From NCBI RefSeq assembly GCF_025499425.1, contig NZ_JAIMCB010000002.1:62001-126000 (forward strand): a DNA stretch of 64,000 bases, written 5' to 3'. Source of the stretch: Acidiferrimicrobium sp. IK. Lineage in GTDB: Bacteria > Actinomycetota > Acidimicrobiia > Acidimicrobiales > Palsa-688. The translations under genes were made by a program, and so were the position numbers. The notes beneath the pieces were generated by a model. That model had not been told where the DNA came from, searched no databases, and saw nothing but the letters and a program-made list of their open reading frames with translations. Numbering within the stretch: the first letter of the stretch is position 1; each line of letters begins with the position of its first letter. This document shows, piece after piece, positions 41,798-47,171 of this stretch.

Positions 41798-43357
41798 GTG
41801 ACCCGGTCGGAGCGTGTCGTCGCCGCCGGCGGCGCTCACCGGGACGCGGCGGCGACCCGGGAGGCCAGCCCGGCGGGGTCGGGCCCGTGGCGCAGCCCCC
41901 GGCTGCTGGCCGGCGCCGTCCTGGCCGGGTATCTGGCTGTGCTGGTCGCGATCTCGCTGCACGAGTACCGCACCTTCAACCTGAGCTGGGATTTCGGCCA
42001 GGCCGAGCAGGCCTGGCACCTGATCGCCCACGGGACCCTCGACCCCTACGACTCCCTTCACCATCACGCCTGGTGGCAGGACCACGCGGCGCTGCTGATC
42101 TGGCTGCTGGCGCCGCTGTACTGGCTGGCGCCCAACGACGGCTTGACCCTGCTCGTCGTCCAAGACGTCGCCATCGTGGTGGCGGTGGCAGCCGCCGCCG
42201 ACTGGGCGGTGCTGTTCTGCACCCGCCGAGGGGCGCGCCCGGCGGTGACCGCGACGTGCGTGTCGGCGCTCCTGGCGCTTTGCGTGTTCAACGTCGGCCT
42301 CTACGCCACGGTCCTCTACGACTTCCACGACCAGGTGCTCGGCGTCGCCTTTTTGGTGCTTACCGGTCGCGACGTCTACGCCGGCCGGAACCGTCGGGCG
42401 GTGCTGTGGGCGGCGCTCACGTTGCTGTCGATGGACCTCAGCGCCCTCAACCTGGCGGCCCTAGGAGCGGGCCTGGCCCTCACCGAGCGCCGCCTCCGCC
42501 GGCCCGGGGTGGCGATGGTCGCTGCGGGAGCGGCCTGGTACCTGGCGGCGGGACTGCTCGGCGGGACCAAGGGCACCACTCTCAGCTACTACGACGCGCT
42601 GGCCGGGCGGCGCCTGACCGGCGGCCTCGGCGACTACCTGTCCATCCTTCGGGGGGCCGCAGCCCACCCGTCGCGGGTGTGGCACCAGCTCACCGTCTAC
42701 CGCTACCGCCTCTACGAGGATTTGATCCCCTCGGGCGTGATCGGCCTGCTCGAGCCGGCGGTGCTGCTCCCGATCATCGTGGTGGTCGTCCCCGGAGCGT
42801 TGAGCTCCTACGGAGGGTTCGTCAAGCTCGGCTTCCAAAACTGCGCCGCCTACATCCTCGCCGCGCTCGGCACCGCGCTGGTCCTGGCCCGGATGGCGAC
42901 CCGGCCGGGCCACCGGTCCCGGCTGTGGCCGGTGGTGGCCGTGGCGGCGGGCGCCGTCGCCGTCGGTTTGGCCTGCGACGGGTCGGTCGCCGTTCGAGGC
43001 GCCGAGGTCGACTACAGCGTGTCGGGCGCCGCCGCGCACCAGCTCGCCGCGGTCCGCCAGCTGACACCCGCCGAGGCCGAGGTGGCGGTCCCCTTCGGCG
43101 TCGTGGGACGGTTCTCGGGCCGCCGATACGTCTACTTGATCCATGACCTGCCGTGGACGCTGCCGGTGCGAGCCAGCCGCGTCGAGGTGGTCTTCGCTCC
43201 CCGCGCCGGCAACGAATGGCTGCCGCTGCCGAAGGTCGCCGCCGCGGAAGCCGCTCTCGTCGGCCGGTACCGGGCGCGGGTCTTGTACCTCGGCTCCGAG
43301 GTGCAGGCCTACACCGTCGAGGACGCCCCCATCGGCGCCACGATCACCCTCCCGTGA
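41798..43357 (+). CDS. DUF2079-family membrane protein
   Basis: A 519-residue polytopic membrane protein with about 9-10 helices. N-L-S-W-D-F-G-Q-A-E-Q-A-W-H-L-I-A-H-G near residue 55 is the DUF2079 signature loop, and Y-D-F-H-D-Q-V-L-G follows. The C-terminal soluble tail handles an extracytoplasmic part. The family is related to GT-C glycosyltransferases but no reaction is known. GTG 41798 is leaderless (TAGCGT 7 nt upstream). Its 3' end overlaps the convergent UGSC selenoprotein gene by 14 nt. Confidence 0.8.
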   Translation: MTRSERVVAAGGAHRDAAATREASPAGSGPWRSPRLLAGAVLAGYLAVLVAISLHEYRTFNLSWDFGQAEQAWHLIAHGTLDPYDSLHHHAWWQDHAALLIWLLAPLYWLAPNDGLTLLVVQDVAIVVAVAAAADWAVLFCTRRGARPAVTATCVSALLALCVFNVGLYATVLYDFHDQVLGVAFLVLTGRDVYAGRNRRAVLWAALTLLSMDLSALNLAALGAGLALTERRLRRPGVAMVAAGAAWYLAAGLLGGTKGTTLSYYDALAGRRLTGGLGDYLSILRGAAAHPSRVWHQLTVYRYRLYEDLIPSGVIGLLEPAVLLPIIVVVVPGALSSYGGFVKLGFQNCAAYILAALGTALVLARMATRPGHRSRLWPVVAVAAGAVAVGLACDGSVAVRGAEVDYSVSGAAAHQLAAVRQLTPAEAEVAVPFGVVGRFSGRRYVYLIHDLPWTLPVRASRVEVVFAPRAGNEWLPLPKVAAAEAALVGRYRARVLYLGSEVQAYTVEDAPIGATITLP

Positions 43358-43883
43358 CGCCGCCGGGGCGTCCGAGCAGCCGGCCGACCAGCTCGTCGAG
43401 CGCAGCGTCGGCCAGCGCCCGCATCTCGTCATCGGTCCGGTCTTGGATCGGGTGGGGGACGAACACCGACGCGGGGGTCACGCCCAGCGCCGCCGACTGG
43501 GCCGCGGCGGCGTCCACGAACGTGCTCGACGCCACGAACACGCCGGGCACGCCCCGGCCTTCAAGATCGACGATGTCGTGCACACTGCACGACGTGCAGC
43601 TGCCTCAATCGGCGAGCGCCTCCATCACCGCCTGACACTCCAACGCGATCTCGTGGCGGAGGTCGATCGGCGCCGGCTTGGTGTAGGTCGGCTTCTTGTA
43701 GCGCCGGGTGACGACCCCCCGCTGGCGGAGCAGCTCCTCGATCCGGTCGAGGAACACGTTTCCTCGCGGCTTGGAGATGTCGAGCAGCCCGACGGTCACT
43801 CCGGCCAGCGACGCCAGCCGCGGCGCCAGCGGGCGGCTGGCGGAGCCGATCTCAGCGGTCGGGTCCATAAGGACTACACCCAC
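43344..43883 (-). CDS. UGSC-family selenoprotein with in-frame UGA (Sec93)
   Basis: A single 179-codon gene read through an in-frame TGA at 43607-43605. Codons 1-92 give V-V-L-M-D-P-T-A-E through A-V-M-E-A-L-A-D. The TGA is followed in frame by G-S-C-T-S-C-S-V-H-D-I-V-D-L, so the peptide is D-U-G-S-C-T-S-C, the diagnostic motif of the UGSC selenoprotein family. The downstream half (F-V-A-S-S-T-F, V-P-H-P-I-Q) continues the same fold. A perfect hairpin lies 11-29 nt after the UGA. GTG 43883 has GGAGG 7 nt upstream and overlaps the stop of the thioredoxin-fold gene, so the two are coupled. A redox role is likely, with Sec and the CxxC-like cysteines as active residues. The exact reaction is unknown. 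SelB, SelA and tRNA-Sec must be elsewhere in the genome. Confidence 0.9.
43575..43593 (-). promoter_or_regulatory. bacterial SECIS-like stem-loop
   Basis: In the mRNA sense, GTCGTGCA-GTG-TGCACGAC forms a perfect 8-bp stem with a GUG loop. The apical loop begins 20 nt after the UGA, inside the 16-37 nt range known for bacterial SECIS elements, and has a G in the first loop positions. The hairpin lies within coding sequence, as expected in bacteria. Confidence 0.75.
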
Positions 43884-45397
43884 GGCGTGACCTCCCTCGT
43901 GACGGGTTCGCTGCCCTCGGCACCGTTGACCCAGCCTCCCATGACAGCAGAGAACATCCCCGCGTCGCCACCGCAGTGCACCAGCAGCAATCCGCCGTCA
44001 CGGAACTTCGGCAGCACCCGATCGGCCAACCCGGAGGGGATCCCCTCCGAGATGCCGCCCGCCCCCTGCACCAGCTCGGATCCCGGCAGCTGGAGCAGGC
44101 CTTGCAGCTCGCCGACCAGGCGGCGGCGGTCCCAGCCCTCCGCCGCGAAGGTACGCAGATGCTCGGGTGACACCGCCACGATGGCGTCGAAAGCCATCGG
44201 CAGCTTCGGATGCCCGACGCTGCGCAGGCAAGCCGCGAACGAGCGGGCCAGCGAGGCCGCGGTGCGGGACTTTTGATCGACGATCCCTCGGGGGGCTTCC
44301 CCGGCGAACAACGTGACCGCTGACGTCCCGCTCGGCACGCCTCGCTCTTCCGCCAGCGACATCCACCCCGCGGCGCGCGCCGGGCCCTCCGACTCGGCGA
44401 AGCACAAGCCCGCCTTGCCGGGGTTGCCGAAGGTGGCACGGTCCACGCCACCGGGGCGGCCCCCGCCGACGTTGCGGATCACCAGCTGCAACGCCCGACC
44501 GATCGTCGAGTTGGCCCGGGTGCCCTGCCCGAACACGTTAACCCCGCTGTTGATCCCGACCGCGGGTGCGATCGGACCGTTGACGACGAGCACCGGGCCA
44601 GCGAAATGGGTGGTGGCGAGCAGACCATGAGCGTTGAACTCCGTGGTGCAAGCGGCCTCCACCGCGGTCAGCACGACGGGGAGGTACTCCGGGCGGCAGC
44701 CGGCCATGACCGCGTTGACGGCCACCTTCTCCACGGTGCACTCGACGAGGTTGGGCGGCACGACGGCCACGACGTCGGTCGCGGCGCGGGTGGTGCCGGC
44801 GAGCATGCGCAGCACCCGCACCTCGGTCGGGGCGACGAGCGGAAGGCCGTCAGACCAGCCCCGGTCGTACATCGCCTCCGCTTCGTCCTCGGCGCTGGCC
44901 AGCTCCACCCGGCGGGACCGCAGCGGGCTGCGACCGAAGCGAACCGCCAGCGTCTCGGGCATCCCGACGTCGTGGGTGCGCGACCCGCACCCGGGGCGGT
45001 AAGGCGGCAGCGCCGGGAACGCTGCTCCCAGGTCGACGCCGAAGAACTCGGACCACCGCCCCACCTCCCACCCCACGACCCGGCTCTGCTCCCGACCGTC
45101 GACAACCCGCACGACGGTCGGGACCGTCTCGATGTCGAGATGGAAGCTGACCGCGAGCTCGCGGTCGTCGATGACACCGGGGACGCCGTCGGGGAAGGCC
45201 GGGTCGTCTTGGCTGTAGACCGCGGCGATCGCCCCGTCAGCGGCGAGGCGGGCGATGACTGGGGCCACCAGCTCGCAGGTCGGGCAGTCCCGCTTGAGGA
45301 CCGCTACCACCCCGTCGGGCACCGCCGGCGGAAACGGGCCGCCGGGTGCAAGTGGCGCCTCGGCGCCGACCGTCGGGCTGGGCGGCTGGTTCCCCAC
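43874..45397 (-). CDS. thioredoxin-fold protein, partner of the UGSC selenoprotein
   Basis: A 507-residue protein. Residues about 28-115 are a thioredoxin fold with V-A-V-L-K-R-D-C-P-T-C (Cys38 and Cys41) and a cis-proline region E-T-V-P-T-V. The remaining about 380 residues belong to a conserved domain I do not recognise by name; it contains M-Y-D-R-G-W-S-D-G-L-P-L-V and many glycine-rich strands. GTG 45397 follows TATGGT by 6 nt, so the operon is probably leaderless. The UGSC gene starts inside its 3' end. The pairing suggests the thioredoxin domain reduces or is reduced by the Sec centre. It is divergent from a SulP transporter. Confidence 0.8.
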   Translation of the reverse strand: MGNQPPSPTVGAEAPLAPGGPFPPAVPDGVVAVLKRDCPTCELVAPVIARLAADGAIAAVYSQDDPAFPDGVPGVIDDRELAVSFHLDIETVPTVVRVVDGREQSRVVGWEVGRWSEFFGVDLGAAFPALPPYRPGCGSRTHDVGMPETLAVRFGRSPLRSRRVELASAEDEAEAMYDRGWSDGLPLVAPTEVRVLRMLAGTTRAATDVVAVVPPNLVECTVEKVAVNAVMAGCRPEYLPVVLTAVEAACTTEFNAHGLLATTHFAGPVLVVNGPIAPAVGINSGVNVFGQGTRANSTIGRALQLVIRNVGGGRPGGVDRATFGNPGKAGLCFAESEGPARAAGWMSLAEERGVPSGTSAVTLFAGEAPRGIVDQKSRTAASLARSFAACLRSVGHPKLPMAFDAIVAVSPEHLRTFAAEGWDRRRLVGELQGLLQLPGSELVQGAGGISEGIPSGLADRVLPKFRDGGLLLVHCGGDAGMFSAVMGGWVNGAEGSEPVTREVTPWV

Positions 45398-45446
45398 CGC
45401 GCCACCATACGCCCCGGCATCGCACGGTCGCCGGGGGCAGTGGGCG

Positions 45447-47171
45447 ATGATGACCGCCATGGCCCAGGCGAGGACACCAACGGACCGCGACGGGAGCAGA
45501 ATCCCGGAGGTCTTCTCGTCGCTCAGGGGCTACCAGGCGTCGTGGGCCGGCCCCGACGCCATCGCCGGGGTGACCCTTCTGGTCATCGCCGTCCCCGAGC
45601 AGATCGCCACGTCGAGGCTGGCCGGCATGCCCCCCATCACCGGCCTGTACGCGTTCGTGGCCGGCACCGTCCTCTTCGCCCTGGTCGGACGCAACCCCCG
45701 GATGTCGGTGGGGGCCGACTCGACGATCGCGCCGCTGTTCGCGCTGGGCGTGGCCCAGTTCGCGCCGGCCGGGACACCGCGTTACGTGGCGCTGGTCGGG
45801 CTCCTCGCGGTCCTGGTCGGGGCGCTGGTGGCGGCGGTCGGGCTGCTGCGGCTGGGGTGGCTCGCGGAGTTCCTCTCCGCTCCGATCATCACCGGATTCC
45901 TGGCCGGCATCGCAGTGGTGATCGTCATCCACCAGCTCCCGGACCTGCTCGGCATCCCCTCCTCGAGCGGCTCGAACCTCCATCGGGTCGGCTACATCGC
46001 CACCCACCTCGACGGGGTCAACGGCTGGTCGGCGGGGATCGGGGTGGCGGTCCTGGCCGCGGTGGTCGGCGCGGAGCGCGTCGACCGGCGGATCCCGGGC
46101 GCGCTCGTCGGCCTGCTCGCCTCGACGATCGTGGTGGCGGCCGCCGGTCTGCGCGGCCACGGCGTCGCTGTGCTCGGCCACGTGGTGCATGGCGCCCCCC
46201 GCTGGGGTCTCGCCGGCCTGTCGTGGAGCGCGGTGCGCGACACCGCGCCCATCGCCGGGGTCGTGGCTCTGGTGGTCATCAGCCAGTCGGCCGCGACGGC
46301 CCGGGCCTTCCCGGGCAGCGCCGAGTACCAGGAGGACACCAACCGGGACTTCGTCGCGGTCGGCGCCGGCAGCATCGTCGCCGGGCTCGCCGGCGCCTTC
46401 CCGGTGAACGCCAGCCCGCCCCGGACCGCCGCGGTGGCCTCCGCCGGCGGCCGCTCGCAAGCGGCCGGGCTGGGGGCCGCCGCCGCCGTGGTGCTGCTGG
46501 TCCCGGCCGCCCGGCTTCTCACCGACGTTCCCGTGGCGACGTTGGCCGGTGTGCTCATCTTCGTGGCCGCCCGGATCTTCCGCGTCGGGGACCTCGTCGC
46601 GGTGCTGCGCTTCGACTACGTCGAGTTCGCCTTGGCCGTGGTCACGTTGCTGACCGTCGCGCTGGTCGGGGTGGAGCAGGGCATCGGAGTGGCGGTCGGG
46701 CTGGCCATCTTGGACCGCACCCGTCTCAGCGCCCGGCCCCAGCTGCACGTGCTCGGTCGGATCCCGGGGACCACCAGCTGGGCGCCGCTCAGCGGTGTCG
46801 AGCACGCCGCGCAAGTGCCCGGCGTCCTGGTCGTCCTTTTCGCCACGCCGCTTTGGTACGCCAACGCCGTGCACTTCCGCGCCGAGCTGCAGACCGCTCG
46901 CCTGCGGGTTGCCGGCACCCTCCACGCCGTCGTCCTCGACGCCATCGGGATGAGCGACATCGACTACACGGGAGCCAAAGCCCTCGCCGAGGCGCTCGAC
47001 GACCTCGACGAGCAGCAGATCGGATTCGCCATCGCCAGAGCCGGCGAGCACGTCCGCGTCAGCCTCGAGCGCAGCGGGCTGCTGGCCCGCATCGGCGAGG
47101 ACCACCTGTATCCCGCGGTCGACGAGGCGGTGACCGCTCTGACCGCCGGCGGCGCTCCCCGCCAGCCCTAG
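45447..47171 (+). CDS. SulP-family anion transporter with STAS domain
   Basis: A 574-residue protein. Residues about 25-430 are the SulP membrane domain (G-V-T-L-L-V-I-A-V-P-E-Q-I-A, T-G-L-Y-A-F, F-P-V-N-A-S-P-P-R-T-A-A). Residues about 460-570 are a cytoplasmic STAS domain with V-V-L-D-A-I-G-M-S-D-I-D-Y-T-G, in which a serine is kept at the anti-sigma-antagonist position. SulP proteins move sulfate, bicarbonate or other anions. Three close in-frame ATGs exist; the first has GGGGG 9 nt upstream. Next to a selenoprotein operon, a role in oxyanion uptake is an open guess. Confidence 0.87.
   Translation: MMTAMAQARTPTDRDGSRIPEVFSSLRGYQASWAGPDAIAGVTLLVIAVPEQIATSRLAGMPPITGLYAFVAGTVLFALVGRNPRMSVGADSTIAPLFALGVAQFAPAGTPRYVALVGLLAVLVGALVAAVGLLRLGWLAEFLSAPIITGFLAGIAVVIVIHQLPDLLGIPSSSGSNLHRVGYIATHLDGVNGWSAGIGVAVLAAVVGAERVDRRIPGALVGLLASTIVVAAAGLRGHGVAVLGHVVHGAPRWGLAGLSWSAVRDTAPIAGVVALVVISQSAATARAFPGSAEYQEDTNRDFVAVGAGSIVAGLAGAFPVNASPPRTAAVASAGGRSQAAGLGAAAAVVLLVPAARLLTDVPVATLAGVLIFVAARIFRVGDLVAVLRFDYVEFALAVVTLLTVALVGVEQGIGVAVGLAILDRTRLSARPQLHVLGRIPGTTSWAPLSGVEHAAQVPGVLVVLFATPLWYANAVHFRAELQTARLRVAGTLHAVVLDAIGMSDIDYTGAKALAEALDDLDEQQIGFAIARAGEHVRVSLERSGLLARIGEDHLYPAVDEAVTALTAGGAPRQP

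Follow-up and report, generated by a model that had tools for sequence, protein, structure and literature searches.

A UGSC-family selenoprotein gene and its thioredoxin-domain partner: a candidate two-subunit selenoreductase and remote relative of glycine and proline reductases

A UGSC-family gene with an in-frame UGA and the gene upstream of it

The window (the whole stretch of DNA analysed, 64,000 nucleotides) carries on its reverse strand a gene of the UGSC family and, directly upstream, a longer gene whose product joins a thioredoxin-like domain to an unnamed core domain (Table 1). The two genes share 10 nt (43874-43883). The GTG start of the UGSC gene is backed by the co-linear N-termini of its relatives, and around the UGA its product reads ...ALADUGSCTSCSVHD... 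when TGA is taken as selenocysteine (Sec). An earlier reading made from the sequence only had joined two same-frame segments through this TGA, giving the peptide D-U-G-S-C-T-S-C, and had assigned the result to the UGSC family; its coordinates are exact to the base, and the profile check it had proposed for the joined 179-residue protein gives matches above cut-off to both PF24696 (9e-42, 143.5 bits, cut-off 25) and NF041046 (6e-44, 149.6 bits, cut-off 125). On its sequence, the gene falls within an already known family, UGSC, and a profile search finds it as the only such gene in this genome. Two other matches to the protein, to KAS III (E 0.0076) and to DUF116 (E 0.067), were both treated as chance, the profile having failed to recover KAS III.

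Table 1. Features of the UGSC gene and of its upstream partner, with positions counted from the first nucleotide of the window.
Feature	Position	Strand	Remarks
UGSC-family gene, very probably encoding a selenoprotein	43344..43883	-	179 aa including Sec93; GTG start 43883-43881; terminal TGA 43346-43344
In-frame UGA, very probably read as Sec (D-U-G-S-C-T-S-C)	43605..43607	-	TGA in 80/80 closest relatives; Cys codon in distant ones
GGGAGG, probable RBS	43891..43896	-	7 nt 5' of the UGSC GTG; inferred from sequence
Bacterial SECIS hairpin	43575..43593	-	8-bp stem, loop GUG; synonymous freeze and compensatory pairs
Partner gene, coding for a thioredoxin-like and an unnamed core domain	43874..45460	-	may really start further in, e.g. 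at GTG 45397
Thioredoxin-fold domain of the partner	45035..45334	-	residues 43-142; profile and fold matches
C-P-T-C redox motif of the partner	45275..45286	-	residues 59-62; CxTC in 63/63 thioredoxin-bearing rows (alignment A3)
Core domain of the partner	43877..44893	-	residues 190-528; no Pfam/NCBIfam family
Invariant Cys255 of the partner core (A-G-C)	44696..44698	-	72/72 rows (alignment A3)

The same reading had expected automatic annotation to split the gene, and the ORF list does so, giving one ORF of 92 aa (43605-43883) and another of 79 aa (43344-43583). On plasmid pFER4 of Paracoccus ferrooxidans, a UGA-type UGSC homologue (L193 8378-8947) is deposited as two adjacent 'hypothetical proteins', which when joined read ...LANUGSCTSWSVHD...; on that plasmid, the gene has selA on one side and selB on the other.

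In the partner, the N-terminal domain has a profile match to a thioredoxin (E 1.5e-5), in agreement with the fold search, and a cis-Pro accompanies the CxTC motif in all 63 partners that carry this domain (A3). It also fills the structure-match lists obtained for the whole partner. The core matches no Pfam or NCBIfam family, and its profile finds no match among PDB sequences. A divergent gene for a SulP-family anion transporter (window 45255-47171, forward strand) has a listed start that overlaps the partner gene; its true start probably lies near 45447-45459, and the start of the partner is therefore also uncertain.

Evidence that the UGA is read as selenocysteine

TGA occupies the Sec codon in each of the 80 closest relatives found (species genomes), and the protein sequence is conserved on both sides of it. 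Distant UGSC homologues (L131, L145, L148 and L149) have TGC or TGT, i.e., Cys, at this position in an unbroken frame, so the two halves form one protein and are not separate ones; the sequence-only reading had considered that the halves might exist only as separate proteins, and these four are single chains.

The stem-loop that it had placed at 43593-43575, with the first base of the apical loop 20 nt after the UGA, is confirmed as a perfect 8-bp stem, in which GTCGTGCA (43593-43586) pairs with TGCACGAC (43582-43575) around the loop GTG (43585-43583). Scaled to the gene as a whole, the synonymous-codon entropy of 81 sequences drops to 0.00-0.18 over codons 97-101 and at codon 103, as opposed to ~0.9 elsewhere, and is 0.69 at codon 102, where the choice between CAC and CAT keeps a G-C or a G-U pair. 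One stem pair changes from G-C to A-U in L039, and another from C-G to G-C in L133 and L142, two relatives with a protein identity of only 30-34%. Among 43 aligned sequences 96.4% of cells are paired, with changes on both sides at two pairs, and the covariation score of the stem exceeds that of all 500 shuffles, a result that kinship among the sequences can also produce. A comparable stem is absent from three of the four Cys homologues, while the stem present in the fourth, L148, is unrelated. In the window itself, the 36 nt concerned have an unremarkable folding energy (z = -0.5), which is not decisive as SECIS evidence, and their MFE favours a competing hairpin, CUGCAC-GUC-GUGCAG; it is conservation that supports the 8-bp stem.

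The host had been expected to possess a Sec pathway, and the search of its genome found one, with selA and selB adjacent to each other (C3), selD (C34) and, on C20, a tRNA-Sec whose anticodon is UCA. SelA is likewise present in 17 of the 18 sampled phylum genomes with a UGA-type UGSC. One genome (G036) has a UGA-type UGSC and a partner with no detectable SelA, which may reflect an incomplete assembly, contamination or loss of the Sec machinery.

A rival view takes the UGA for a genuine stop, an error of sequencing or the mark of a pseudogene, and the downstream ORF for separate or dead. The split in the mechanical ORF list and a hairpin unremarkable by energy alone speak for it; against it stand the TGA shared at this codon by 80 independent loci, a protein conserved on both sides of it, frozen hairpin codons, compensatory pairs and a complete Sec machinery, and for practical purposes such an explanation is already refuted. 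A recoding of the UGA other than as Sec was dismissed in view of the 80/80 TGA, the synonymous freeze, the Cys homologues and the tRNA-Sec. Taken together, the profile matches, the invariable TGA, the frozen codons and compensatory pairs of the hairpin and the Sec machinery make it almost certain that the gene encodes a selenoprotein of a known family, in which Sec would be inserted at this codon.

Fold, distant homology and genomic pairing of the UGSC protein

The structure model of the UGSC protein (pLDDT 94, pTM 0.87) shows five strands alternating with five helices and places Sec93 between strand 85-91, the third, and helix 94-109; the U/C-G-x-C motif lies at the end of this third strand, and C(U)93, G94 and C96 are invariant across 57 aligned UGSC rows. 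The model matches flavodoxin- and Rossmann-like structures with generic strength, and the protein is predicted to form a single Rossmann/flavodoxin-like alpha/beta domain. No thioredoxin is found among the listed structure matches and the strand order is unlike that of thioredoxin; as far as the model goes, the thioredoxin-like fold inferred for UGSC in an ocean survey (PMC2398784) is not supported.

Profile comparison points to homology between the Sec-bearing half of the protein and the GrdB/PrdB C-terminal domain. Against a profile of GrdB and PrdB-like proteins, built from selenoproteins found in related genomes, hhalign gives a score of 45.2 (P 6.8e-7) and places Sec on Sec over only ~83 residues, as compared with a mean of 14.3 (sd 3.5, max 28.2) for 300 shuffled targets, 26.9 for Asp/Glu racemases and 11.5 for response regulators taken as control families; a relation to the racemases, prompted by the CTS motif, was set aside as weak. 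Both sides share the order of a strand, Sec, a helix, an 'E-x-x-G-I/V-P' strand and an HP/FP motif. The likeness might instead be convergent, two Rossmann-like folds having acquired UxxC at the same strand end with the UGA still read as Sec, and the restriction of the match to ~83 columns would fit this, as would the separate comparisons with GrdB and with PrdB-like proteins, each of which reaches only P ~5e-4. Yet the combined profile scores above all 300 shuffles, both control families fall far below it, and the order of the shared elements agrees, so that we regard convergence as unlikely and retain homology as the better reading.

The UGSC protein and the host genome have no match to PF07355, NCBIfam returns UGSC only, and the upstream partner has neither a match to PF09338 (GrdE/PrdA) nor profile similarity to GrdE (P 0.61), by which an identity of the core with GrdE/PrdA was ruled out. 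Lacking both a PF07355 match and a GrdE-type partner, UGSC is not itself a member of GrdB/PrdB. Searches by sequence turned up no GrdB or PrdB-like relative whose structure has been solved. In the GrdB proteins from actinobacteria that entered this comparison, the +3 residue is Gly, not Cys. Actinobacterial genomes also encode many small PrdB-like selenoproteins with a UPxC motif (L109-L130); in these, the coverage by PF07355 ends at the Sec, and two of them (L114 and L119) have an extra C-terminal domain of ~150 residues.

Of the 80 closest-relative loci, 76 have a homologue of the partner; almost all of these homologues lie immediately upstream of UGSC, and in many cases stop and start overlap by 4 nt. 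Over 296 genomes of the phylum, the partner core occurs in all 22 with an above-cut-off UGSC and in a single one (G183) of the 274 others, which is the only core-bearing genome without UGSC. The pairing persists among UGSC proteins of 25-43% identity and among Cys forms, whichever gene comes first, extends to haloarchaeal and proteobacterial plasmids, and in L151 takes the form of a fusion of UGSC and partner core in one 592-aa chain with a UGA. The sequence-only reading overlooked both this near-obligate upstream partner and the relation of the Sec half to GrdB/PrdB.

Distant partners are devoid of the thioredoxin domain. Alongside these, genes of the thioredoxin system may be found: the order is trxB-trxA-core-UGSC in Arthrobacter and core-UGSC-trxB in Roseovarius, and trxB lies near the core in Variovorax. 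The arrangement is not general, with trxB beside the pair at only 3 of the 8 plasmid loci and at none of 16 phylum loci. Beyond the pair itself, no neighbour is common to a majority of close relatives, other high counts being due to shadow frames of the pair, and in the window the operon is not flanked by catabolic genes from which a substrate might be guessed. On several plasmids the UGSC-core pair lies within clusters holding CoA-transferases and TRAP/TTT transporters, a setting that suits small-acid metabolism.

Plasmid 2 of the haloarchaeon Halalkalicoccus jeotgali (L191 7279-9978) has two core genes flanking one annotated UGSC family gene, in a cluster that also holds CoA-transferase, RraA and TRAP transporter genes. 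ORFs L182 and L214 of G183, a genome with no UGSC match, each have two tandem partner cores in one chain, which suggests that the core may act as a (pseudo)dimer. A UGSC-core fusion in G136 (L152 1447-3195) has M-G-T-S, i.e., neither Sec nor Cys, at the U-G-S-C site in a genome without SelA, and is apparently a non-redox relative. On pVEu of Vibrio europaeus, a 562-aa core protein (L196 8323-10008) has room for a UGSC-type fusion but no UGSC match, and adjoins an aconitase X/DUF126 gene and an enolase-like gene.

A possible thioredoxin-fed reductase and its known relatives

From the pairing with the partner, the domain content of the two proteins and the homology to GrdB/PrdB, we infer that UGSC and its partner probably form a two-subunit, thioredoxin-fed selenoreductase, with glycine and proline reductases as distant relatives. 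The host SelA, SelB, SelD and tRNA-Sec would read the UGA (43607-43605) as Sec under the direction of the hairpin (43593-43575), and UGSC, as the Sec-bearing subunit, would be complexed with the protein encoded by the upstream gene that overlaps its own, as the genomic pairing suggests. The partner core would bind a small substrate, whose electrophilic carbon, by analogy with the homologous GrdB/PrdB, would most likely be attacked by the selenolate with displacement of a leaving group; Cys96 of the UxxC motif would then close a selenenyl-sulphide, to be reduced by the thioredoxin domain of the partner (CPTC) with electrons from thioredoxin reductase. As to the substrate, a small organic acid or amine is our guess, and a tentative one. 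Several observations count against such a selenoreductase: the core is unlike GrdE, which leaves the pair lacking the best-known subunit for substrate activation; the match to GrdB covers ~83 residues, with no PF07355; trxB is sparse at these loci; G036 is without SelA; actinobacterial GrdB has Gly at +3; and the operon in the window is free of catabolic neighbours.

UGSC might alternatively be a general thiol-disulphide or peroxide-type redox protein, with the partner as its redox client or electron relay and no carbon-heteroatom chemistry. The UxxC motif and the real thioredoxin domain of the partner are compatible with this, as is the likely Trx-like fold inferred in the 2008 survey (PMC2398784), whereas the confident UGSC model has five alternating strands and helices in an order that is not that of thioredoxin, the Sec half aligns to GrdB/PrdB far better than to the control families, and the plasmid clusters contain CoA-transferases and TRAP/TTT transporters. 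A purely thiol-based role consequently appears rather unlikely, if somewhat less so than convergence, and a selenoreductase remains the preferred reading. In broader terms, UGSC and the core could represent an unrecognised, widespread class of two-subunit selenoenzymes, present in bacteria and haloarchaea (where UGSC-core pairs are annotated). Such a class would branch from within the GrdB/PrdB superfamily, differ in its substrate subunit and draw on thioredoxin that is either built in or encoded nearby; we see the case for this as evenly balanced.

In the ocean survey, UGSC ranks among the most abundant bacterial selenoprotein families of aquatic metagenomes (PMC2398784), and a 2026 review lists it without a function (PMC13188914). 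The pairing with the partner, the fusion to thioredoxin and the relation to GrdB/PrdB are not stated in the papers on UGSC that the search covered. New here are the upstream partner and its thioredoxin/core makeup, the GrdB/PrdB homology, and the position of some distant pairs beside trxB or trxB-trxA. The partner, the thioredoxin supply and this homology give a protein listed without a function a specific candidate role that can be put to the test, as part of a two-protein reductase driven by thioredoxin, for which natural fusions and Cys variants exist, ready for expression; moreover, an unannotated protein family, the partner core, accompanies UGSC nearly wherever UGSC occurs.

At the gene level there is no difference from the UGSC family of PF24696/NF041046, with which the gene shares the cut-offs, the U-G-S-C motif, the in-frame UGA and the SECIS. 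With GrdB, selenoprotein B of glycine/betaine/sarcosine reductase (PF07355/TIGR01918), and PrdB of D-proline reductase (TIGR04483) it has in common a homologous Sec domain, Sec on Sec, and with PrdB-like proteins also the UxxC motif; in contrast with both, UGSC stands alone at 179 aa without PF07355, and is paired with a protein other than GrdE/PrdA (PF09338). In glycine reductase, according to the 2026 review, the selenoprotein GrdB binds the substrate and releases ammonia, and electrons come from thioredoxin (PMC13188914), the source also proposed here; for C-F cleavage, nucleophilic attack by the Sec of a GrdB-like protein has been proposed (PMC10838667). The N-terminus of the partner resembles thioredoxin (TIGR01068/PF00085) in its CxTC, cis-Pro and fold, and differs from it in being fused to the core and in the Thr that precedes the second Cys. 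Finally, the ocean survey describes a UGSC/Unknown_1 fusion in which the uncharacterised domain has a conserved Cys (PMC2398784); L151 likewise fuses UGSC to the partner core and is probably the same kind of fusion, Unknown_1 then likely being the partner core itself.
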